A DNA stretch of 64,000 nt from the NCBI RefSeq assembly GCF_964019845.1, contig NZ_OZ026465.1, forward strand, positions 434,001-498,000, given 5' to 3'. A program made the position numbers and the translations under genes. Position 1 is the stretch's first letter, and each line of letters begins with the position of its first letter. The notes below the pieces were generated by a model. It was not told where the DNA came from, did no database searches, and saw only the letters and a list, made by a program, of their open reading frames with translations. This stretch comes from Spiroplasma endosymbiont of Labia minor. Lineage in GTDB: Bacteria; Bacillota_I; Bacilli_A; Mycoplasmatales; Mycoplasmataceae. This document shows positions 16,080 to 43,026 of this stretch, piece after piece.

Positions 16080-18119
16080 ATGAATAAACTAGTTATTCTA
16101 GAATCATCAAACAAAATAAAAAAAGTATCAACTTATTTAAATAAATTAAATGATGGTAATCAATATATTGTTAAAGCTTCCGTTGGACATGTTCGTGAAT
16201 TAGCACAAAGTGGAATTTATAATATAGGTATTGATTTTAATACCGTTGAACCAAATTTCATAATTTCAAAAGATAAAAATAGTGTTGTAAATGAATTAAA
16301 AACACTAGCAAAACAAGTTGATTAAATTATTTTAGCAACTGATCCAGATCGAGAAGGAGAAGTTATTGCTTGACACTTAAATCAAATTCTAAAATCATAT
16401 TGTAATAATTTTGCAAGATTAAAATTGAATGCAATCAAGCAAGAAGAAATAAAAAAACAAGTTAATAAATTAACAGAAATTGATAGCAACTATGTCAATG
16501 CAGGATTATCTAGAAGTTATTTAGACAAAACAACAGGTTTTATTCTGTCAAAAATTTTACAAGATCAAACTGTGGGAATTTCTGCTGGTCGTGTGCAATC
16601 ATCTGTTTTGAAACTATTGTGTGATAGAGAAAAAGATATTAAAAATTTTGTTAAAGAAGAGTGATATATTTTAAAATCAAATCTTGGTGATGTTGATTTC
16701 AAAAATGTTGAATATATAGATGAAAAATATGAGGTCAAAAAATATAAATCATTAAATGATGCACTGCAAATCAAAAATCAATTAGGTGCAAATTATATTG
16801 TCAAAGACATAGTTAAAAAAGAATTTAAAGATAAGGCATTTATAAATTTTACAACTTCAGACTATTTGCAAAGTGCTAAAACTAAATTGAAATTAAAAGT
16901 AAAACAAGCAACTGAAATTGCACAATCATTATTCGAAAAAGGTTTGATAACATACATTAGAACTGATTCAACAAAATTGGATGAAGAAACTGAGAGACAA
17001 TTATTAAATTATGTCTCTCTTAAATTTGGTCAAGAAAATGTAACTGACAAGATATCTACAAGAAAAGAAAAAGATACAGATCAAGAGGGGCACCCCCCAA
17101 TTACACCGACTCATTTTGAATGAGAACCTTACAATATTCAAAATCATGTTACTGATGTTTTAACAAGTAATGAAATTTCAGTATATAAAATGATTTGACA
17201 AAACACAATAAATTCAGCAATTAAAGTACCAAATGGTTTTAAAACAAATTATGTATTAGAAAACAACAGTTACCTATTTAATGGTGAAACTAAAGAGTAT
17301 GAATACTTAGGCTATTTCTTATTTGATAAAACCTTAGATGTAAATGTAAAACAAATTATGAATTGAAATTTGCATGATAATGTTCAATTACCATCAGTTC
17401 AAGCAATACTGCAAAATACTAATCCGAAATCTAGATTTAACGAAGCTACTTTAATTAAAGAGTTAGAAAGATTAGGTATTGGTAGACCTTCAACGTATAA
17501 AACCTCGGTTGAAGTTAACTTAAAAAGAAATTATGTTGAAATTGATAAAAAAGATGCAATGTATGTAACAGCATTAGGATTTAAAGTATCTAATTTTTTG
17601 GAACAAAATTTTAGTGATTTTATAAATTTAGAATTTACAAAACATATGGAAGAAACTTTAGATGATATAGCTAAAGACAAAATTGATCATAAAGTTTATA
17701 TAAAAAACTATTTTAATAGTTTAAAAAATAAGGGAGAAAAATATATGGTAGATCAAATTAAATGTCCAAAATGTCAAACTGGATATATAAGACAAGTAAA
17801 AAATAAGGAAGGAAAGGATTTAGGCTTTAAATCTTGCAGTAACTGACCAAATTGTGATTATAATGATAAGCCACAAGTTGACATAAATACCTTACCAAAA
17901 TGTGAAAATTGTGATGGCAGAATTCAAACTATCGAATATACAAATAAAGATGGAATTAAAGTTTCATTTAAAAAATGTACAACAGAAAACTGTAAATGAG
18001 TACCTGGTGCAATTCAAAAATGTACTTTATGTAATGAAGGTTGATTAATAAATCGTACTGGTAAAAAAGGTGCTTTTATAGCATGTAATAATTATCCTAA
18101 ATGTAAATTTGTAGGTTAG
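16080..18119 (+). pseudogene. topA: Type IA DNA topoisomerase, interrupted by in-frame TAA
   Basis: Mobile-element topoisomerase I/III-like gene of 680 codons. TOPRIM starts with VILESSNKIKKV; codon 82 is TAA (16323-16325) just before IILATDPDREGEVIAW, splitting the TOPRIM acidic triad. After the stop the frame stays open to 18117: the catalytic Tyr in LITYIRTDST (about codon 292), RPSTYK, and C-terminal zinc ribbons (CPKC, CENC, CTLC). A Tyr codon is expected at the stop position. Unless the stop is read through, or is a sequence error, the full enzyme is not made. SD AAGAAGG precedes the start. Confidence 0.85.
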
Positions 18120-18123
18120 AAAT

Positions 18124-18291
18124 ATGGCAAATAAAATTTATTATGGAATAACTAATTGTGGTCATGCAAAATTTGATATTGCAAAGAAGATGCGTGAATT
18201 AAATTATAAACAATACAGTAAGTTTGAAAATTCAATGATACATTGCTATTTTTGTGGAGTATATGTAAATTGAAAACCGATTGAGGAGTAA
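18124..18291 (+). CDS. Small Cys-containing protein
   Basis: 55 aa with TNCGHAKFD near the start and CYFCG near residue 42, a plausible small zinc site. It begins four bases after the topoisomerase stop. Function unknown. Confidence 0.5.
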
Positions 18292-18295
18292 AAGT

Positions 18296-18682
18296 ATGCT
18301 ACCTGTACAATTAACATCAACTAAGGTTGAGAAATTTAAAAGACCAAAAATTAGTAAATGTACAAAATTTGAAAAAGAAATAAAAACTAAAATGAATAAA
18401 TTATCTAAGTATATGATTAATGATGATTATTTTAAAATTAAATATTTCAGTTTTAGTTTGAAAAGTTCGCCGTTTGAAAATGATAATTCCATTTTATATA
18501 TTGGATTTACTATAAGCGTTCCGAATTTAAATAAAATACTTGAGTCTTGACAAACAATGCATTTAAAGGAATTACCAGCAGGATTTAAAAACGATTCAAC
18601 AGCTTGAACCATTTTTACATTAAATGAAATGTTAAATCCAAAATTAAAAGAAAATTTGAATGAAGAAATTCCAATGTTATAA
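18296..18682 (+). CDS. Hypothetical protein
   Basis: 128-aa protein of unknown function with TGA-encoded Trp at two sites near the C-terminus. Start chosen at ATG 18296, preceded by GAGGAGTAAA. Same operon as the topoisomerase. Confidence 0.6.
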
Positions 18683-18704
18683 ATTAAATTTAAAGGAGAA
18701 TACT

Positions 18705-19295
18705 ATGGAAAAATACAAGATTTATAAACGTTTATGCAAACCGTTTAATCAAAAATTTGATAATTCTAATCAAAGTATTTTTGTGTTACCAAAATCAATT
18801 ATTAAATATGATAAATATGGTAAAAAATCAGTAATTATAAAATTAAATGATAAAACATATATTTCAATGCCAAAAACATTTATAGATCAATCTAAATTTG
18901 ACAATAATGATTTCTTATTAAAATTATCACAAACATATACTTTTCATAGCTATAATATGACTCCTTCAAAAGAAAATAAAAAACAAAGAAAAGTTAAATT
19001 AACAGATAAACTGGGCGTTACTTTTCAATTGGAATTTCAACGTTTACATGAAATATATCAAAAAATTAAATATGAAACATTAAATGCAGATAATGAGAAA
19101 TATTTAGATTATATGAAATTTTTAATTGAACAAAAAACTAAATTTAGTTTATCAGTAATGAAATTCATTGAAAAAAATTATATTAATCTAGGTTCTGAAT
19201 TAGAATCAGAACTTTTATCAAATAATCATGAACATTATATATTCAAAGATGATCCACCAAATATTATAGATAATAATTGAGATTGAGAATTCTAA
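18705..19295 (+). CDS. Hypothetical protein
   Basis: 196-aa protein of unknown function. The N-terminal part includes IFVLPKSIIKYDK and YISMPKTFID, reminiscent of beta-rich nucleic-acid-binding modules, but no family is recognised. The ATG at 18705 is preferred over an upstream in-frame ATG (18660) because AAAGGAG lies seven bases before it. It ends with an acidic WDWEF tail. A terminator follows. Confidence 0.6.
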
Positions 19296-19335
19296 TAATT
19301 AAATAGAAAGTAAAAATGTTCAAACTATATATTTA

Positions 19336-19367
19336 AAACCGTAATTTAATGTGATTACGGATTTTTT
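19336..19367 (+). terminator. Rho-independent terminator
   Basis: CCGTAAT (19339-19345) pairs with ATTACGG (19354-19360) around an 8-base loop, followed by ATTTTTT. Ends the topoisomerase operon. Confidence 0.85.
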
Positions 19368-19413
19368 GCGTTAAATTGAAAAATAATAAACGTTTTTCAG
19401 TTACCTAATAGTA

Positions 19414-19466
19414 ATTCAAAAGATTTCAAAAGATTTCAAAAGAGATTAAAAGAACCGTGGTATAAT
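19414..19466 (+). promoter_or_regulatory. Four 10-bp direct repeats abutting an extended -10 promoter
   Basis: Units ATTCAAAAGA, TTTCAAAAGA, TTTCAAAAGA, GATTAAAAGA run head to tail at 19414-19453, one helical turn apart, and end seven bases before TGGTATAAT (-10 at 19461-19466). They cover the place of the -35 box, so a repressor or activator, or a plasmid-type initiator, probably binds here to control the gene at 19502. Confidence 0.6.
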
Positions 19467-19501
19467 TTTCGTGTTTATATTACATAGAAAGTATTTTAAT
19501 T

Positions 19502-20092
19502 GTGAAGAAGAAAAGTAAAAGTCAAAAACTAAGAAAAAAGAAAAAGAAATTAAACAGTTTAATCAATAATGAAAATAATTTGATTAAAAAATATACTATT
19601 GATTCTTTAGATGAATTATTTAATATCATAATTTCAAAAATAAAAGAATATGATGTTCTTGCTAAAATGCCGGAAATTGCAAATAATTTATATGATAATT
19701 TAATGGAAATGTTAAATGAAGATGAAATGATTTATGACGATTTTATAAAAAGTGAAATTTGAAATTCTAAAAATGCAGTTGGTATACCAAATCCAGAAAA
19801 AAATTCTAGACAAGAAATTGATCAATACATAAAAGTGAATAATGCTAATATTAATTCAGAAAAATCAAAAGCAAAGAAAATAACTGATGTTTTTTCAAAA
19901 GAAATTATTGAATTTGATGATATTTCTAAATTATTTGTAACAAATTATCTATATTATGGTGATATTTTTTACCTTGATGATGAATTAACAATGAATAATT
20001 TTGAGAAAGAATTCCTTATAAAAAATGATATTTATAAAGAGCTAGATTTAATTAAAAAATATGTAGAATGAGCAAAAATAACGAATAATTAA
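19502..20092 (+). CDS. Hypothetical protein downstream of iteron-like repeats
   Basis: 196 aa, starting at GTG with GAAAG upstream. Extremely basic N-terminus (KKKSKSQKLRKKKKKL) followed by an acidic helical body. The basic tail suggests nucleic-acid binding. Iteron-like repeats lie directly upstream, so it could be an element replication or regulatory protein; that is inference from position only. It is followed within seven bases by the first conserved leader. Confidence 0.6.
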
Positions 20093-20098
20093 TTGTTT

Positions 20099-20205
20099 TA
20101 CTATGTTATACTATTTTCAGATAAGCAAAGCATTTAAACAGACAAGGTCTCTGTTTTGGCTTTGTTTTTTTGTGTTTAAATGTTTTTTGCAGAAAGGAAG
20201 ATAAA
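20099..20205 (+). promoter_or_regulatory. Conserved ICE leader RNA, copy A (relaxase operon)
   Basis: Extended -10 TGTTATACT (TATACT at 20107-20112), then GATAAGCAAA and GCATTTAAAC (20130-20139), a terminator-like pair CAAGG...CTTTG followed by T7, and the returning strand GTTTAAATG (20174-20182). SD AAAGGAAG ends eight bases before the TTG start. This copy lacks the CTTATC element found in copies B-D. The CAAGG/CTTTG pair here uses a G-U wobble where the others have A-U, which supports the helix. Confidence 0.7.
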
Positions 20206-21768
20206 TTGCCTAGAAATAAACAAAATTCAAATGTCATTTTTAAAATTAAGTTTAATGATTATCATCAAGATGATAAATCAAAACGTGCAAGAGATAAATT
20301 TTATAAAAAAGGTGGTAAATTAGATTACATCTTAAGATCTGATGCAGTTTTTAATTTAGATTTATCTAAAGAACAATTATCAGAATTACAATTATTGCAA
20401 TTAAAAGATAAAGAATTATATTTGCAAAGAATTGAAGAATTAAAAAATGATACTTCAATTAAAAGAAATACGGGTTTATATGGGAAAAATGGTGTTTATT
20501 CACAAGTTGAACTAGCTAAATTATATGAAACTCATAAAAATTTAAATGATGATCAATTATTATGAGATGGTGTCATTTCTTTTTCCAAAAATTTTGCAAA
20601 AGAAAACAACATTTTTCATCCAGAAGATATGCAAAAATTGATTAATAAAAATATTAAAAAAATGTTAATTGCAAACGATATGGATCCAAATAAATTTGAG
20701 TGATTTTATTCTATGCACACAGATACTAAAAATCCGCATTTTCATGTTGGTATAGTTGAAAAAGAACCCTCAAAGGTTGTTATAGATTTAGATAAAGATG
20801 GTAAACCAATCAGAAATAAATATCAAAAGATAAAAACTCATTTAGAATGAACAAGAAAAGGTAAATTTTCAGATGAATCAATGAAAGATTTAAGACTTAA
20901 TATTCAAAGAAATGTTGTTGAAAGAAATTATGATTATGAACCATATAATTTTGCAAGAAAAGAATTACGTGATAAATTAAATGAATTTAATATCAATGAA
21001 CAATGAAATAGTTTTAAACAGGTTGTTTTAGATTTAAAAGAAGCAACCACAAGTACGTCTGTTAAATTTGAAAATATCATTATGTATTTTGCAGATAAAT
21101 TTAAAAATATAACACGCAATGGTGAACAAAATTTGACTAAAAAAGATTTTAGTTATGGTTCAAAGCATGTAACAGATGCAGAAAGAGAAATGTTAGATGA
21201 TTTAGCAATGTCTTTTATTAAATCAAATAACGAATTAAATGAAAAATGAATTAATTTCAGCAAATTAAATAATGCAAGAGCAGTTATGTCATTTAAATCC
21301 ACAGTAGAAAAAGAAGATGCAGATTTAATAGATATTACATCGTTAACAAATGATGATATTTTTAGAGGAAAAAATAATTTTGATGTAAATAATCCAATTG
21401 ATAAATTAAAACTAGAATTATTAAATTATAAAAATGAGCATATTAAATCAAAAAATGCAGATAATAAATGACAAGGTGTATTACCTGCATTTGCAAATAA
21501 AATTATTGCAGCAATAATTAGACAAATTAATTCAAAAAATTTTAATGATAGAAAAGGTGAATCTAGTTCAACTTGAAATCCAACTAAGACAGATGGTAAA
21601 TCAGGCATTACTAAAAAAAATGATAAATTTGTTTTTTTAATGAATAAAATTATTGATAAAGAAAAATATCAAGCAAATAAAAGATTTAAAAAGATACTAC
21701 AAACAAAACAAAAATTGGAAGATGAATTTAATCAAAAATTAAAACATAACAAGGAGAGAGAAATCTAA
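20206..21768 (+). CDS. MobL/MOBP-type conjugative relaxase
   Basis: 520-aa relaxase that should nick oriT and pilot the transferred strand. The HUH metal site HTDTKNPHFH (His171, Asp173, His178, His180) and the upstream WDGVISFSKNF block are typical of MobL (MOBP) relaxases. TTG at 20206 is chosen because AAAGGAAG is well placed and no ATG is nearby. The catalytic Tyr is probably in the N-terminal third (Tyr candidates around GLYGKNGVYS), but I cannot assign it. First gene of the operon driven from leader A, followed immediately by a small membrane protein and TraG. Confidence 0.85.
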
Positions 21769-25149: not shown

Positions 25150-25262
25150 TTAAATGTTATACTAATTGTAGATAAGCAAAGCATTTAAACAGACAAAGTC
25201 TCTGTTTTGGCTTTGTTTTTTTGTGTTTAAATGCTACTTATCATGTATAGATAAGGAGAAAT
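25150..25262 (+). promoter_or_regulatory. Conserved ICE leader RNA, copy B (VirB2/VirB6 operon)
   Basis: The most complete copy. TGTTATACT (TATACT 25158-25163); GATAAG (25171-25176) pairs with CTTATC (25237-25242); GCATTTAAAC (25181-25190) pairs with GTTTAAATGC (25225-25234); inside are ACAGAC/GTC-TCTGT and CAAAG/CTTTG hairpins, the latter followed by T8. A second GATAAG (25250-25255) overlaps SD AAGGAG and can pair with the same CTTATC, giving two mutually exclusive folds. Confidence 0.75.
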
Positions 25263-25269
25263 AAAAATT

Positions 25270-25599
25270 TTGAATTCATATAATAAAAAGATGATTAATT
25301 CTGCAAATGGTAAACTTAGTGAATTAAGTGATTTAATAGAAGGATCATTTGCTGTAAAAGTTAGTATAACCAAAAAAGATAAATATGATTGCAAAATTGC
25401 CAAATATTGAAATAGCAAAAATTATGAAGAATTTACTGTAGATAATTTTCTTTTAAAAGAAAATTTTGATGCAAAATTGCCAAAATATATTGTTTATTCT
25501 AACGATGATAGTATTTTTGGTAAATTTTATTCGGATGATGAAATTAGTTTGGCATTAAAAAAGGAATATGAACAAGTGCAAGAAATGGAGATGGATTAA
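25270..25599 (+). CDS. Hypothetical protein, first gene after leader B
   Basis: 109-aa soluble acidic protein of unknown function. TTG at 25270 is chosen because SD AAGGAG (25253-25258) is correctly spaced; the alternative ATG at 25291 is too far. It ends two bases before the VirB2-like gene. Confidence 0.55.
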
Positions 25600-30620: not shown

Positions 30621-30646
30621 TATAATAAAAATGAGGTGATAAAATG
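30621..30646 (+). promoter_or_regulatory. Promoter and start region of methyltransferase
   Basis: TATAAT (30621-30626) lies seven bases upstream of TGAGGTGATAAAATG (30632-30646), the SD and start codon. The same 15 bases recur in frame at 30755-30769, giving a second potential initiation site. Confidence 0.55.
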
Positions 30647-31876
30647 AATAATTCAATTAATGAAACTGTAATTTTAGAAAAATTCGATTCTAATCAAAAA
30701 ATAAGTGAGCAAACATTGAAATCAACAGATACTTGAAAAAAACATTCTCGTATGTGAGGTGATAAAATGCACAGAATTTGCTCTTATGTTGCAATGTTTC
30801 CGCCAACATTGGCAAATTACTTTATTGATAAATATTCAAATGAAGGCGATGTCGTGTTGGATACATTCTCAGGTAGAGGTACAACTTTATTAGAATCAAG
30901 AATTTTAAACAGAATTACTTATGCAATTGATTTAAATCCTTTTGCATATATTCTTTCAAAATCAAAAGCTCAAAGTTATCAATTACAGGATGTTGTTAAT
31001 AGAATTAACACATGGGAATATTCATTTTATCAAAATGACAAAAAAATAAAAATAGATCAATCTATGCGAGTATTTTATAGTAAAAGGAATTTAATTCAGC
31101 TTTCATTCATTAAAAATAATTATGGTGATAAATGGCGAGAATTAGATGAAATTGATAATTTCATTTTATCTATAACATTAGGATTAATGCACGGACCAGC
31201 AAGAAAAAATCAGGATACAATGTATTTTTCATTAAGTATGAGCAATTGTATTTCAATGTCTAGTAATTATGTAAAAAATTATGCTAGAAATAAAAAATTA
31301 AAATATCCAAAGGATAATATTTTTCAAAAAATACGTAATCGAGCTATTGAAATTTTACAAAAATCAGATAGTAATAAAAATGATAATTTCGCTCATGTAT
31401 ATTTTGGAAATTCGCTTGAAATAGAAAATTATATGGATAATGTAAAACCTAATTTAATTTTTACATCTCCGCCATATTTGAATATCGTAAATTATACTAA
31501 ACAAAATTGAATTAAAATGTGATTATTAGGATTTGATACAAATAAAAAAAATAAGAGTTTAAAATTAGATGATTATCACAATATAAATGAATACATTAAT
31601 TTTATGCATAATTATTTAAATGCTGTTTTAAATATTATGAATGAAAATACAACATTAGCCTTAGTTATAGGAGACGTTCAAAAAAATGACAAAATATATT
31701 CTTTTAGTCAAATGTGAGATGAAAATCTTAAATATAGACTGAATGATTTGATTTTAAATGAAATATATACTGATGAAATAAATCAAAATAAAAAAGCAAC
31801 CAATTCTATGGGTAAAAAGGCAGGCAAAGCAACTAGAATTGATAAAATATACATATTTAAAAAAATAAATTTATAA
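30644..31876 (+). CDS. DNA methyltransferase with TSPPY motif (N4-cytosine or N6-adenine)
   Basis: 410 aa. HRICSYVAMFPPTLANYFI (from about 42), motif I VVLDTFSGRGTTLLES (about 71-86) and catalytic TSPPY (about 275-279) are in the order of beta-class methyltransferases; SPPY is commonest among N4-cytosine enzymes. Third gene of the HNH/ParB-like/methyltransferase cluster, though with its own promoter, and could protect host DNA from that HNH nuclease. An internal in-frame ATG (30767) with an identical SD would give a 369-aa form starting exactly at the conserved HRI block. Leader C follows its stop. Confidence 0.85.
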
Positions 31877-31879
31877 AAA

Positions 31880-31988
31880 ATGTTATACTATTTTTAGATA
31901 AGCAAAGCATTTAAACGGACAAAGTCTGTTTTGGCTTTGTTTTTTTGTGTTTAAATGCTTTCTTGTCAATTTATAGATAAGGAGAAAT
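31880..31988 (+). promoter_or_regulatory. Conserved ICE leader RNA, copy C
   Basis: TGTTATACT (TATACT 31884-31889); GATAAG (31897-31902) pairs with CTTGTC (31962-31967) using a U-G wobble; GCATTTAAAC (31907-31916) pairs with GTTTAAATGC (31949-31958); inner ACGGAC/GTCTGT and ACAAAG/CTTTGT hairpins, the latter before T7. The second GATAAG (31976-31981) overlaps SD AAGGAG. Drives the genes from 31995. Confidence 0.75.
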
Positions 31989-31994
31989 ATAACT

Positions 31995-32690
31995 ATGAGT
32001 AGTGAAACTCAATATAAAGCAAAATTAAAAGAATTAATAGAAAAGTATAAAAACTTAGTCTTTCAATTTTCGATACATGAAAATTGATATGAAATTAAAA
32101 ATATTCATTTAGTTTTTTTGACAAATTTAGAAAAACTAAATTCAAGTAATGAAAATGATAAATTATCTATTACTGATTTGATGAGAATTAATGAATATAA
32201 TTCAAGACAAACACAAAATAATAAGGACTCATTTTCAAAAATTTATACTGATTTAGTACAGTTAAAAAATTTGTGCCCATTTACTATTAAAAACACAATT
32301 TTAAAAGAAAATTATGAAAATAAAATTGATTATAAATGAGATGAAAAATTAAGACCAAAGAATCCATCTGATTTTGATGTGTTTTTAAATCAGAAAAGGC
32401 AAATTGAAAATGTACATATTAAATATAGACATGAAAATTTTGATAATATACATAATTTTAAATTGAAATGAGATAAGGAATTTAAGGATCAAGAAGACTT
32501 TAAATTCAAAGTAATTTTATATGATAATGAAAATATAATAGATGTAGACGCCGGAAAAATAGCGATTCCTTATGAAATCGTTGATAATGAAAATTACTGA
32601 AAAGAAAATAAAGAATTATATATGCAAGAAATTAAAGAACAAATAAAGAGTTTTTATGATAGAGAAAAAGATTTTCTATTGGAGTTTTAA
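31995..32690 (+). CDS. Hypothetical protein, first gene after leader C
   Basis: 231-aa soluble, charged protein that I do not recognise. Six TGA-encoded Trp. SD AAGGAG is part of the leader switch region. It is followed within two bases by a small gene. Confidence 0.6.
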
Positions 32691-33830: not shown

Positions 33831-36569
33831 ATGGGAATATCAATAATCCCACCAAATTCAAATAAACATAAACTAAAAATTAAAGGTAATTTAACCTTAA
33901 TAGATTTTATTGCATTATTTTTAATATGTGGTTTGTCTGCATTAATTGGTTGATCTATTTATGAAGTTACCAATTTAATTGGATCAATTATAATTTCAAT
34001 TTTAATTGCTATGTTAATGTCAAGTTTTTTATTGCCAAGTAAAAAATATAAAAAACGTATTTATCAGTTATGTTGAGAATTTTTAAAATGATTAAGTTCA
34101 AATCGCAAAATGACTGTAAAAAATAAAAATTCAAATAATGATACGGTTAATTTATTTGCGTATAAAAAAATACATGATAATTTTATTGAAACAGATATTA
34201 AATTGAAAAATAAATCAACATTTATTGGCGGTTTAAAATTAGATGGATTTAATTTAAATAATTTATCTATAGATGAGCAAGACATAAAAATTAATCAATT
34301 TAAAAATGTATTAGATTTAATTGATGTAAATTTATCAATTATTAAAATAAATAATTGTGTAGATATGTTAGATAATAAAATGTATATAAATAATAAATTA
34401 AGAGAATTAGAAGATGAAAATAATTTATCTGTAAATCAAATAAAAGCTAAAAAAGAACAATTAAAAGGTTATTTGGAGTTACATAATGAATATAAACAAT
34501 CACTTGATTCTGTAATTACAATTAGAAATGAATATTACATATTGTTTTATGCAATAGGTGTAGAAAGCGCAAATATAATATATTCAAATTTAAGTTATAA
34601 ATTAGATGCAATTGGCTTAAAAACAAAGCAATTAAATGGTTTTGAATTGGTTGGATTAGTTAAAAATTTATTTGATCCATATTCAGAAAAATTAAATGAT
34701 AAAGAAATAACTAAATTTAAGCATAATTTAAAAGAATTATTTTCATTTGAAAATGTTGAATTTAAAAAAGAAAGTGTAGTTGTTAAAAATGATAATGATG
34801 AGCTACATATTAATTTTACAGCTGTAGATGAATATCCAAAATATCCAAATCGAACATGACTGTTACCCTTAATGCAAACTGATTCAACAGTTATTTTAAA
34901 TATTGAAAATGTGACAAGAGAATCATTTACTAAAGAGATTGATAAATTGGTTTCTAATGTTGAATCAAATATTTATAATACAGATAGAAGAAAAATTACA
35001 AATTCTAGAGAACAGCAAAATGACTTAAGCATGTACAATGCTTTGATTGATGAATTCTCGGCTGATGAAGAACAAATTAAAAAAATCAATTTGTTATTTA
35101 TAACTTGTGCAAATTCTAAACAAGAATTAAAAATGTCTTTAAATTCATTAAGAAATAATTTAAAAGAAAATCATTTTGAAGAAAATAGACTATTATTTAT
35201 GCAATTAGAAGGTTTTTCTGCTTGCTTGCCCAAAATAACTGATCCATTATCAATTAATTTAGGTCGTGCAGTACCGACAACAGTTGTTGCAGAATCATTT
35301 CCATTTGTAACTTCAGATGTAAAGGATGTATATGGTGCGTATATTGGAACTGATGAATTGGGTAATCCATTAATATTGGATCTTTTTTTAAGAACAAAAA
35401 CTAGAAAAAATCATAATATGGTAATAATGGGAATTGCTGGTTCTGGCAAATCAACTTTACTTAAGAAAATATTAAATTGACATGTTTCAGTAAATAGAAA
35501 AGTAATAATTATTGATCCAGAACGTGAATATAAAGATTTATGTACGTATCATAACGGTTCATGAATTAATGCTGGAGATGGCTCAAAAAATAGAATTAAT
35601 CCGTTACAGGTAATGTTGCCATTCCAAGATGAAGATAGTGTCGAAATCTTAAGTAAAGAAACTAGAGAAGAAATTATTTCATCACATTTATCAAGATTAG
35701 AAGAGTGAATTAAAATACTATACCCAGAATTAGAAGAAAATATAATTCGTTATTTTTCTAAATTAGTTGGTGAACTATATAATATTGATAAATTTAAAAA
35801 AGTAAATTATGATTCAAAATCTAATGATTTTCCGATTTTTGATGATTTAGTTAGATACATGGAAAATAAAATTGAACTAAATCAATTAGACAAATTGACA
35901 ACCGAATCAAAAATAATCCATATTAATTTATTAGAATTAATCAAAAATGAATTTACCAATTTTGGCAAATACAAAGTTTTATATAATGGTTATTCATCTG
36001 TAGATATTGCAAATAATAATTTTATTGTATTTGATATTAATTCATTAGTTGATAATAACAAAAAAATTCAAGCACAATTATATTTAATAACTGCCTTTAT
36101 TCAAAATGAAGTTAGAAAAGTTGGTTTTAGAGCTAAAAATGAAATAGTTATTGCAATAGATGAAGCACATTTATTAATTGACAAAGATAATCCAATTGCC
36201 TTAAATTTCATTTATCAAACAACTAAACGAATTAGAAAATATCGAGGTTCAATGATTTTAGCTACACAAAATCCAGAAGACTTCAATTCTGAACCAGAAA
36301 TTGCTAAAAAAACTAAAGCTATGATGAACAATGTTCAATATTCAGTAATTATGAATTTATCTCCAGAAAACACAAAAGCAATTGTTGAAATGTATAGAGG
36401 TTATGGTAATGGATTGAGTTCAAATGAAATAGATATAATTTCACACGCACAAACCGGTGAAGGTTTATTGTTTGTAAGTGGTTTTGATCGTCATAAAGTT
36501 AATGTTAGATTATTAGATTCAGAGAAAAAAGCTATTGGTAGAATGGGTGGAGTAAGTGAACAAAACTAA
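33831..36569 (+). CDS. VirB4/TrsE-like T4SS ATPase with N-terminal VirB3-like membrane part
   Basis: 912-aa ATPase energising the conjugation channel. Two membrane helices (about 22-42 and 47-66) in the first 80 residues resemble a VirB3-like domain fused to VirB4. Then the VirB4 body, Walker A GIAGSGKST (534-542), RED-like IIDPEREYKDL (about 560), Walker B VIAIDEAHLLI (Asp777) and LATQNPEDF (about 808). SD AAAGGAA before ATG. First gene of the operon running to 38307. Confidence 0.88.
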
Positions 36570-38779: not shown

Positions 38780-38890
38780 GAATAATGTATACTATTATCA
38801 GATAAGCAAAGCATTTAAACAGGCAAAGTCTGTTTTGGCTTTGTTTTTTGCGTTTAAATGCTTTCTTGTCAATTTATAAATAAGGAGAAT
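38780..38890 (+). promoter_or_regulatory. Conserved ICE leader RNA, copy D (surface protein operon)
   Basis: TATACT (38788-38793); GATAAG (38801-38806) pairs with CTTGTC (38865-38870); GCATTTAAAC (38811-38820) with GTTTAAATGC (38852-38861); inner ACAGGC/GTCTGT pairs by a G-U wobble at the position where copy C has G-C; CAAAG/CTTTG before T6. The downstream competitor here is AATAAG (38879-38884), overlapping SD AAGGAG. Confidence 0.75.
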
Positions 38891-38893
38891 TTT

Positions 38894-39307
38894 ATGAAAA
38901 AAGAAAAATTAAATTTAGAAGATGAATTATTGAATTTTGCTTTATTTAATAAATTAAATTATAGAACTGTAATTAATAAAAATATATCTTTAGATAATAG
39001 AATTTTATTAATATATGCAATGAAAAATAAAATCAATATCTCTTTACTTGAAAATGATGTATTTTTATCAAAATATTCAAATGATCAGTTATTAAAGATT
39101 ATCAAATTATTATTTGAAAATAAAAATCCAATTTTATTGCAAAACCAAAAATTAAAAGATGAAGATTTACAAACAAGATACGATTTTACAATGAATTTTT
39201 ATCAAAAAAATATATTAATAAATAAAGAAACAAAAACTAAATATTCATCAATTATAGATGAAGAGATACCATCATTTTATAAATCAAATGATTATGAAAT
39301 TGATTAG
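38894..39307 (+). CDS. Hypothetical protein, first gene after leader D
   Basis: 137-aa soluble helical protein of unknown function. ATG at 38894 with the leader's AAGGAG seven bases upstream. It precedes the large surface protein by 12 bases, so the two are co-expressed. Confidence 0.6.
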   Translation: MKKEKLNLEDELLNFALFNKLNYRTVINKNISLDNRILLIYAMKNKINISLLENDVFLSKYSNDQLLKIIKLLFENKNPILLQNQKLKDEDLQTRYDFTMNFYQKNILINKETKTKYSSIIDEEIPSFYKSNDYEID

Positions 39308-39319
39308 GTAAAATAATCT

Positions 39320-42277
39320 ATGAAAAAATTATTAAGTTTATTAGCTATTGTTTCTTTTGCACTATCAAATCCAATATTTTTAAATGATAACAATAAAATA
39401 TCAGATATTAATTCAAGCAATTTAAATAAAGTAAATCCCGTAAGTAATCATAATAAATTTTATAACCCTTTATATCCACCAATTAATGCAAATACAATAG
39501 ATAAGATAAATGTTTCTGATAATGATAATCATGGTGGTGGAAGCTTAGGAAGTAACGCAAATAAAACATTTAAATTAATTAAATGAAATGATTATGCACC
39601 AGATTGAAATACTTTTTCAAAGCATTATGAAAAAATCACTTTACAAGATTTATATGGTTCTGTAACGTTGGGCGAAAAAAATACCAGTGATTCATCAAAC
39701 ACACCGATTGATATAGTTACATCAGATACATCTGAACATCAATGATTACATAAATTTGATGGTTCATGAGACGATGCCGAAATGTATGGTTATTATTCTT
39801 TAAAACACGATGATCAATATTTGCAAATTAATTTCAAATTTACTCATCCTGCAGATGATACACATACAGACTCATATTCATATAAATTATCAAAAATAAG
39901 TTTAACTTCAATTTTTGATGTAAACGACTTTGAGCAAAAAATAATTAATAGTTTATCTAAAAATTTTAATTTTACATCAGATACATCAGATTTAATTGAT
40001 TCTGAAGATAGATATTCTATAAACGGCGAAGTAACTTCAAATAAAGAAATTATTAAAATTGAAATTGATAAACGTCTAAAAAATTCTTTTGATGTTGATT
40101 ATGATGCTTGATTTGGTGGAGATAAACCTATTTTAAAAGTTAATTTACAATTTGATAATATTAAAAATATTGTCTATATTACTTTAAAAGATGAAAATAC
40201 GGGCATCGTTGGTGATAATCAATTTGTAATTTCAAATGTTGCCATGCAAGTTAATTTATCACTTTCAGATGATTATTGACAATTAAATTTGCAACGTAGA
40301 TTATCTATCTCACCATCAAAAATTGTAGATCCATCAGATTCATACAATAATTTAATTTTAGATAATCCAGAATATTATCCAGATGACAATCATACCTATA
40401 TTTATCACAACGCAGTAGATATTTCATTTACAGCTCATACAAGTAGTGAAATACTGAATGTTAATGGTACTGCAGTACCGGTTTATAACAATAAATTTTA
40501 TATTCGTTTAGCTGATAACAAAATGACAAATAATAATTCAGAATCTAATTCCAAATATGAAGTTACTATAACAGATAATGGTGACATCAAAATGACTATA
40601 AATATTAAAATAGAGTCTGTTAATTCATTTTTAAATTTTAAATGGTTAGGTTGAAATCCAATTAATGACCCATCGCAATCAGTATATTATGAACAATATT
40701 TATTGATTACACCAACTATAAATGGTGAAACTAATCCAAAATATGATTCAACTATTAATGCAGATACTGGTACTCGACAACAGTTTATAGGTATAAATTA
40801 TAATTTCAAAGATGCTTTTGCATTTGACCCTTTAAACAAATACGGAAATTTAATTAATAATTCTAAAGATTATGAACCTTTTTATATTGCTCAAGGTGTT
40901 GTGGTTAACTCGGGTTTTTCTACTTTAATTGAAAATACTGAAAGTATTGATCATATCGAAAGAGTAAAAGTTGAACCATTAACATTAAATGAATTATCAC
41001 AAAGACAAGTTGTAGATTTAGATAATGAATTGCAATTTTCACAACCGGGATTATGACATTATATAATTTACATGAAAGATTATGTCAAAGAAAAAGTAGA
41101 TCCTACAAATCCAGGTAATGAAAAAATAGAGGCAATACAAGGTTCAACTTTACATCAATTTGTGTACATTGATAATTCAGCAAATTCATATGCATCATTT
41201 TTAAATCAAATAGATATTGCAAAAAATAAGGATATTACTGATTTGTGATCTTCCATTCATGCAAAGCATTTAAAATTCTATTTAGCAAATGATATAGGAA
41301 TGTCAACAAATGAAATCACTAAGTTGGATTATGCACAAATTATCTCATTCTGAAATCAATATGTATCAGATGCAATTGAGCAATTGGTGGATATTAATCC
41401 AGATCCAACAGAATACAAAGATTTGACTAATTTAAATATTGCAAGTTTAAAAATGAATGCTAAGTCTGAAAATGACATTAAAGAAAATATCAAAAATTAT
41501 GTTAATGAAAAAGTAACTGATTTTGCCTCAAAATCAATTTATAAAAGTGATTATGAAATTGTAGTCAATGGCCAGTTATTAGAAAATGCGGATTTATCAC
41601 AATATGTATTACCTGAAAGTTCATCAGAAGAAGAAATTAAAAAAGAATTTTCAGTTTCAATTGTAGCTACCGCTGAATCAACAATTTTGGAAAATTCACA
41701 ATCTTTAAAAATAATTAATGATAGTAAATATGATAAAGATATTGTATTAAATCTAGAAAATGTTTTATTTCAAAATTATGAATATAATTTTTCAAATTGG
41801 AATGAGAATGAAAAAAATCAATTCTTACAAAATTACGTTTATGATAATGTAACTAAATATTTAGAAAAATATAAGCCAAATAAATTTGAAGGTGAATATG
41901 TTTATGGTGTTGATTATTTAATTTCACTTGAAGGATTAAACGGAATAGATATTAAAACACAAGATGATATTGATCAAATTTTAAATTCATTTTTTATGGC
42001 CAAAGAATCAACTACACTAAAATTTACAATTTATGCTTTAGATGATTCAATGGTTTTGGAAGGCTTTAATTCATTTGAAATAACAAATAATCCTGATTCA
42101 GATGATATTGCACCGCCAATCCCACCAGATCCTGATACACCAGGACAAAATGATAAAAATAATCATTTTAATAAAAAACATCTATATTGAATAATTCCAT
42201 TAGTTATAATTGGAGTTAGTTTAATAACGTTAATAGTAATATTAATAATTAGAAGAAAAAGAAAAAAAATTAGATAA
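39320..42277 (+). CDS. Large anchored surface protein of the ICE
   Basis: 985 aa. Cleavable signal peptide (MKKLLSLLAIVSFALSNP), long extracellular body, a Pro/Asp-rich spacer (IAPPIPPDPDTPGQN, about 933-947), a single C-terminal membrane helix (about 958-979) and a basic stop-transfer tail (RRKRKKIR). Two related ~110-residue domains near the C-terminus share the pattern N-L-x(n)-Y-x(n)-DY-I-x(n)-G (KSDYEIVVNGQ and YGVDYLISLEG). The architecture suits an adhesin for mating-cell contact or a VirB5-like role; function is inferred. Low Cys. Confidence 0.75.
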
Positions 42278-42294
42278 TCTAAAATAATTAATGA

Positions 42295-42358
42295 TATAAT
42301 CTTATTAGATAAGCAAGGCATTTTTATGGATTAATTCATATTTTGTCTTGTTTTTTAT
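42295..42358 (+). promoter_or_regulatory. Divergent ICE leader copy E; possible small RNA
   Basis: TATAAT (42295-42300), then GATAAGCAAGGCATTT as in copies A-D, but the returning strands differ: CAAGGCA (42314-42320) pairs with TGTCTTG (42344-42350) followed by T6. The closing GTTTAAATGC strand is absent and no start codon follows for about 170 bases. The product may be a short terminated RNA. Confidence 0.55.
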
Positions 42359-42525: not shown

Positions 42526-43026
42526 ATGTCTGGAAATATGAATACTAATTTTATAACTGGCTTTACTTTTAAAAACAATATGTCCGAAGTTAAACAAAAT
42601 AAAAACGGAAAAGATATTGTTTATGTGACTTTGAACTCGTCTAAACTTGAACAAAATCAAAAATTGACGTTAATCATATCGCCTAAATTGATTTCAGTAT
42701 ATGCTAAAACACCAGTTGAAGGTAAAACTTTTGTAAAAGCTACAGAAGAGCAAATAGCAGAAGGTAAAGGTGGCTTTATAAAAATATCAATGCCACCAGT
42801 AAATGATGCCGAGACAATTAAATTGTTAAGAACAACTTCAATCAAAAATGATGATGGTTCTTTTACAAATAAAAAAGAAGTAATTGAAGTTACAGCGCAG
42901 CAGTTAGAAAATATTCTTTATGAAACCACACAAAAAACTGTTGATTTTGTTAAAAATACAAATAGCAACGAACTTGGTACTGTTGTTCAATCACTTGATG
43001 ATGATCAAGAAATGGATTTTGATTAG
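42526..43026 (+). CDS. SSB-like protein with acidic C-terminus (tentative)
   Basis: 166 aa. The N-terminal two thirds look beta-rich (NGKDIVYVTLNSSK, KLTLIISPKLISVYA), followed by a helix and the acidic tail QSLDDDQEMDFD, the general layout of single-stranded DNA-binding proteins, whose acidic tip binds replication partners. The classic SSB N-terminal motif is not visible, so this is a structural guess. SD AAGGAG, own promoter, own terminator. Confidence 0.5.
   Translation: MSGNMNTNFITGFTFKNNMSEVKQNKNGKDIVYVTLNSSKLEQNQKLTLIISPKLISVYAKTPVEGKTFVKATEEQIAEGKGGFIKISMPPVNDAETIKLLRTTSIKNDDGSFTNKKEVIEVTAQQLENILYETTQKTVDFVKNTNSNELGTVVQSLDDDQEMDFD

Follow-up and report, generated by a model that had tools for sequence, protein, structure and literature searches.

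A 64,000-nt stretch of the genome of the Spiroplasma endosymbiont of Labia minor (contig NZ_OZ026465.1, positions 434,001 to 498,000; G000:C1:434001-498000), referred to here as the window, carries a mollicute-type integrative conjugative element (ICE), nearly all of whose transfer operons begin with a common leader RNA. We consider this leader to be, probably though by no means certainly, a promoter-proximal attenuator of transcription, off by default, that the transfer operons of a single ICE have in common. It begins with a strand of about 20 nt (strand a), which pairs with a following strand (a') in a hairpin termed T1; T1 is followed by a run of U residues and usually by a further strand (b) complementary to a. 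The repetition of the leader, its position, the T1 fold, the a:b pairing in most lineages, the strand-specific pairing as RNA, and the privacy of each leader to its lineage are supported computationally. From the sequence we infer the exact start site, real termination at T1, a factor that reads a in trans, and the job of b.

The window belongs to a single-contig genome of 984 kb (code 4) in a host family represented by 12 sampled genera, among them Spiroplasma and Williamsoniiplasma. The ICE spans approximately 16 to 46 kb of the window and encodes a relaxase related to MobP2/MobP3, T4CP, an Mbov_0396-family membrane protein, VirB4, an Mbov_0399-family protein, and pieces of a UPF0236 transposase. 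Matches above the curated cutoffs to NF045889, NF045975 (VirB4), and NF045892 place it in the Mbov_0396/0397/0399 type. A preliminary description had reported four near-identical leaders before transfer or accessory operons, and all four (A to D) are where it placed them, sharing the 20-mer GATAAGCAAAGCATTTAAAC, for which 0.03 matches at ≤3 mismatches are expected by chance. Each has the TATACT box, hairpin, and T-run described, as well as the closing helix GTTTAAATG, which in A lacks one pair. The set of four was incomplete, as a diverged copy (E) lies at 42307 and another on a decayed ICE remnant, for a genome total of six. Since the repeat starts 6 nt after the end of the TATACT box, transcription is expected to begin at or beside the first base of the repeat. 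The copies and their parts are as follows.

20107..20112, plus strand: −10 box TATACT of leader A (from sequence), preceded by TGT
20119..20205, plus strand: leader A; behind it come the gene of a MobP-type relaxase (TTG start at 20206) and T4CP
20126..20171, plus strand: predicted T1 (20126-20164) and U-run of leader A, from folds and terminator scan; strand b GTTTAAATG at 20174-20182
25158..25163, plus strand: −10 box TATACT of leader B (from sequence)
25170..25262, plus strand: leader B; behind it come a small ICE protein (25270-25599) and the membrane protein of the Mbov_0396 family
25177..25222, plus strand: predicted T1 (25177-25215) and U-run of leader B, from folds and terminator scan; strand b GTTTAAATGC at 25225-25234 and CTTATC at 25237-25242
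31884..31889, plus strand: −10 box TATACT of leader C (from sequence)
31896..31988, plus strand: leader C; behind it come 31995-32690 and the operon of VirB4 (33831-36569)
31903..31946, plus strand: predicted T1 (31903-31939) and U-run of leader C, from folds and terminator scan; strand b GTTTAAATGC at 31949-31958 and CTTGTC at 31962-31967
38788..38793, plus strand: −10 box TATACT of leader D (from sequence)
38800..38890, plus strand: leader D; behind it come 38894-39307 and the Mbov_0399-family protein of 985 aa (39320-42277)
38807..38849, plus strand: predicted T1 (38807-38843) and U-run of leader D, from folds; strand b GTTTAAATGC at 38852-38861 and CTTGTC at 38865-38870
42295..42355, plus strand: leader E, diverged (repeat at 42307), with TATAAT and then AGATAAGCAAGGC; precedes the operon at 42526
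G000:C1:562682-562781: leader copy on the decayed ICE remnant, 90 kb away

Folding of the nascent RNA as far as the U-run gives T1 in every one of the six copies: CAAAGC pairs with GCUUUG, an upper hairpin stands above a small internal loop, and 6 or 7 U residues follow. The predicted energy of this fold (CAAAGC:GCUUUG plus AAAC..GUUU, U-run included) is −16.3 to −18.2 kcal/mol. The upper hairpin varies, being AAACGGAC/GUCUGUUU in C, UAUGGA/UUCAUA in E, and AAACAG/CUGUUU in the remnant. The preliminary description was thus right about the form of an intrinsic terminator and mistaken about which hairpin makes it: the inner CAAAG/CTTTG hairpin that it named is weaker alone (−10.1 versus −16.5 in copy C) and appears only within the full-length fold. 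The pairing of CAAAGC with GGCTTTG, which it had offered as an antiterminator, is the terminator itself, because this stem sits directly on the U-run. In the full-length RNA, strand a (GAUAAG..GCAUUUAAAC) pairs instead with strand b (GUUUAAAUGC..CUUAUC or CUUGUC). This helix is kept in copies A to D and lost in E and the remnant. T1 is retained in both: in leader E one pair of its lower stem has changed with compensation (A-U to G-C), and the remnant leader stands before a broken gene related to the one that follows leader D.

Independently of the folds, a pattern scan found 12 terminator-like sites in 16 to 33 kb against 1.8 expected, with leaders A to C the strongest. The leaders have what characterizes a leader attenuator with an intrinsic terminator: downstream of the promoter and ahead of the first gene, a hairpin runs straight into a stretch of U residues. 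No mutually exclusive antiterminator precedes the U-run in the window leaders, both of whose upstream folds place a stem on it, and b lies downstream of it; a:b can therefore form only after read-through and is no classical cis antiterminator. The leader matches no named RNA family, as had been suspected: an Rfam covariance-model search of the 64 kb gave a single match, to a tRNA, and no T-box, riboswitch, or EAR at gathering score.

Searching the 60 relatives with the window-leader sequence returned convincing matches in its own genome only. VirB4 relatives occur in 25 of 60 genomes of the host family, and the ICEs around them were each compared with themselves. Besides the remnant, 12 elements bear leaders (window, G074a, G074b, G035, G068, G065a, G031, G026, G012, G080, G070, and G001), with two to nine private copies each, and gene maps place these copies at the starts of relaxase/T4CP, VirB4, Mbov_0396, Mbov_0399, and pretransposase operons. 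Profiles of the leader families run against all elements separate seven sequence lineages with nearly no cross-match. The layout is common to every lineage: a −10 box, a repeat at the expected start site, a hairpin, a U-run beginning 34 to 47 nt on, and usually b. On a VirB4 tree, leader-bearing elements are clustered yet patchy (4 changes on 27 rows), and the other ICEs examined in the family (S. citri type and others), in Metamycoplasmatales, and in other Bacilli have no repeated leaders.

In total, 61 leaders from the 12 elements plus the remnant were scored. Copies within one element are not independent, nor are the near-identical elements G080/G074b and G035/G068. Independent support comes from seven lineages, and a:b is clear in five of these. 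Compared with dinucleotide shuffles, the RNA up to the U-run folds more stably, at a mean z of −4.1 across the 61 leaders, and 90% fall below −2. A scan blind to the repeats, asking only for a −10 box, hairpin, and U-run, recovers 56 of the 61; its further plus-strand hits number 13 in the 463 kb that hold the leaders, while in leaderless ICEs, over 1162 kb, they number 47. The complementarity of strand b to a exceeds that of shuffles in all copies scored from the six elements G074a, G031, G026, G012, G080, and G074b (9/9, 4/4, 2/2, 5/5, 5/5, and 7/7) and in 3/5 window copies. Such a match was not seen in G070, which is decayed, in G001, or in the G035/G068/G065a lineage, where an ACCAAAT/ATTTGGT helix surrounds an intact T1.

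The leaders had also been called covarying. Within A to D the changes are one-sided wobbles (G-C or A-U to G-U), and the lack of double compensatory changes means that the term is overstated for those four; compensated changes do appear once other copies and elements are added. For example, GTTAG/CTAAC/CTAAC in a, a', and b becomes GTCAG/TGAC/CTGAC in two copies, and one G074a copy exchanges both a (CTAGCAGC... to CTAGTTGTACTAG) and b (CTAGTACAACTAG). A lack of covariation in homologues had been named as grounds for refutation, and the outcome is the opposite, in that unrelated lineages preserve the fold although their sequences differ. Pair counts over 15 rows give 94.7% paired for T1, with a covariation score reached by 1/500 shuffles, and 96.7% for a:b, with a score reached by 19/500.

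The direction of the remaining mismatches bears on whether the pairing is selected in DNA or in RNA. An inverted repeat in DNA would deviate to G.T and A.C in about equal numbers. Counting single mismatches without favoring wobble pairs, we found 44 G.U against 2 A.C in a:b (shuffles, 34:43; Fisher p 1.4e-9) and 21 against 0 in T1. Deviations to G.U and not A.C argue that the structure is selected as RNA of the gene strand, for which alone they make sense. We accordingly regard as very improbable the idea that the leader works as DNA, either as an inverted-repeat operator for a repressor or as a single-stranded DNA hairpin after transfer, as proposed for EGeRS-type regions of pLS20, even though pLS20 does have repeated inverted repeats beside the promoters of several operons (PMC8708921). 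In single-stranded DNA promoters of that type the promoter lies within the repeat; here the −10 box is outside it, and the U-run always follows the hairpin at 34 to 47 nt. The establishment operons of pLS20 share repeated structured regions that are long and GC-rich, with unknown mechanism (PMC8708921). EGeRS1 resembles our leader in placing one structured sequence before several operons of a conjugative element but comprises 420 to 750 bp, is GC-rich, and serves establishment genes, whereas the leader is about 90 nt, AU-rich, contains a terminator, and stands downstream of a transfer-gene promoter.

Within an element, strand a is 93 to 100% identical among copies and b 43 to 85%, and a' also varies. 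Part of this conservation is ascertainment, because the copies were collected by a 5' motif, but a appears fixed as if read by something besides its pairing partners. Under the attenuator reading, RNA polymerase would begin at or beside the first base of the repeat, and by 34 to 47 nt both a, the invariant 5' terminus, and a' would have been made, so that T1 would close before the U-run. By default most transcripts would end as RNAs of about 50 nt, and the transfer genes would be silent. An element-specific reader of a, either an RNA-binding protein or an antisense RNA, would let polymerase past T1 and turn on the whole conjugation regulon together. With T1 failing or blocked, polymerase would go on to make b. 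The longer a:b helix would then displace T1, wholly or partly, and close the 5' end of the mRNA; b might serve to protect that end, or to rid the mRNA of T1 and of the factor bound to it. As every operon of an element has the same a, and a is unrelated elsewhere, the read-through signal is probably element specific.

Several observations weigh against this attenuator. The strength of T1, the start site (taken from −10 boxes), and regulation are predictions. The position of b after the U-run means that a:b cannot prevent termination on the same RNA, which is puzzling as to its purpose. G001 is without b, degenerate G070 copies have mostly lost it, and the outer helix of G035/G068/G065a coexists with T1 and does not replace it. 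Copies of one element are not independent, the motifs used for collection favor a conserved a, and covariation counts are modest within single lineages. No ICE gene was found that all leader elements share and the remaining elements lack, which leaves the supposed factor without a candidate. As regards known antiterminator proteins, Pfam scans of 20 window proteins, covering part of the ICE's proteins, found no CAT_RBD/PRD (BglG/LicT) domain. Topoisomerase relatives are present in seven of 12 leader elements and 0 leaderless elements, which we judged insufficient for the factor gene. The window itself has a type IA topoisomerase with zinc fingers (16080-18119) in an apparently leaderless operon upstream of leader A.

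Some of these points would suit a passive insulator, in which T1 is an unregulated partial terminator that holds transfer expression low and constant and blocks upstream read-in, with no acting factor and the repeats kept alike by duplication or gene conversion. The want of a regulator candidate among the ICE genes fits this, as does the durability of T1, which is the part retained in degenerate copy E, the remnant, and decayed G070; moreover, T1 of Tn916 is a known insulator against costly expression (PMC11658703). However, an insulator needs neither b nor a fixed 20-nt a, leaving the retention of b in most lineages unexplained, and an insulator against read-in would stand upstream of the promoter rather than between promoter and gene. 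We find this explanation rather unlikely, if the most serious of the rivals.

Comparison with known conjugation systems raises a further alternative. The conjugation genes of Tn916 sit behind a terminator that is overcome by canT RNA (PMC11658703), and ICE transfer genes behind an intrinsic terminator needing read-through are thus common to Tn916 and the elements described here. However, canT is an RNA region of its own, 452 nt long, which lies upstream and works in cis on the terminators that follow it, whereas here the terminator lies within a leader of about 90 nt at every operon. pLS20 uses the protein ConAn1 with the RNA conAn2 (PMC11658703). This bipartite antitermination likewise concerns a conjugation operon with a 5' RNA element controlling terminators, but with one long operon and one RNA element, while the mollicute leader is repeated per operon; no counterpart of that protein or RNA was identified here, no search with a ConAn profile being made. 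Both systems have a single control region, against a leader at every operon here. By analogy with put, EAR, canT, and conAn, the closed a:b leader could bind polymerase and make it resist downstream terminators, T1 being the gate, and the leaders do head long operons and have compact 5' folds. Such processive antitermination seems improbable to us: RNAs of this kind lie upstream of the terminators that they suppress, whereas T1 is inside the leader and is passed before the fold exists. In addition, the lineages share no sequence or loop, whereas one would expect an RNA that binds polymerase to retain the residues making the contact.

We also weighed two roles for b itself. In a translational switch, b would pair with the Shine-Dalgarno sequence while T1 holds a, and formation of a:b would free it. 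In window leaders B to D the Shine-Dalgarno sequence is unpaired 12 to 42% with T1 forced versus 81 to 98% in the free ensemble, and in G031 its accessibility is below 99/100 shuffles. Across 58 copies, however, the accessibility behind T1 comes to 0.387, and shuffled spacers give 0.389, because U-rich spacers mask the purine-rich Shine-Dalgarno sequence anyway. Sequestration by b is therefore not supported as a general function, and we give the switch very little credence. Formation of a second terminator by b was rejected as a general role, since a U-run follows b in leader A and G074a only.

The proposed attenuator resembles the trp/TRAP, T-box, and riboswitch attenuators in placing a hairpin and U-run downstream of the promoter, ahead of the gene, and in offering one hairpin strand a competing partner. 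It differs in that the rival strand comes after the U-run and not before, in that one leader serves 4 to 9 operons of an element, and in having no ligand domain, leader open reading frame, or Rfam match. It is possible, though we advance this with more doubt than confidence, that the order a, a', U-run, b represents an undescribed regulatory RNA architecture, in which the 5' strand of a default-off terminator serves as an element-private address read in trans and a postterminator strand makes read-through irreversible, b clearing T1 and releasing the reader. If true, co-resident ICEs would keep separate regulons since their addresses are unrelated, as in G074, where two ICEs with unrelated leader families occupy one genome. 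In G070, leaders of one family are joined by two copies that look like the other family of G074 (E values of 0.011 and 0.16). The mixture in G074 and G070 is as expected if leaders keep co-resident elements apart.

Text searches of the literature, with subscription papers outside their coverage, found no description of such leaders, and in the text of a review of mollicute islands (PMC7466169) neither operons nor regulation nor terminators are mentioned. Repeated, private to its element, and backed across seven unrelated lineages, the leader is a concrete, testable candidate switch for mollicute ICE transfer genes, and it suggests that DNA transfer is under a common on/off control that is little known. 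The RNA structure is retained while its sequence turns over completely between related elements, so that a sequence search or a single covariance model would miss such leaders.

Other features of the window and its relatives deserve mention. The leaderless genes at 18281-20092 gave no useful match with Pfam, PHROGs, or NCBIfam, and an N6/N4 DNA methyltransferase is encoded on the ICE between leaders B and C (30644-31876). Elsewhere in the same genome, a second, broken VirB4 fragment (29% identity; G000:C1:340003-341082) marks traces of another ICE. A different repeated RNA-like motif, with approximately 14 copies of CTTTCGGATAGGATGCCTATGCGAAAGGAG, is found in CP110830.1 (a Spiroplasma phoeniceum metagenome-assembled genome) and in G063:C1:478000-517999. 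It forms a hairpin with the Shine-Dalgarno sequence in its 3' arm, directly before ICE start codons, and its loop and stem vary while pairing is kept (e.g., CTTTCA...TGAAAG); judged by this arrangement, it looks like a shared translational operator.
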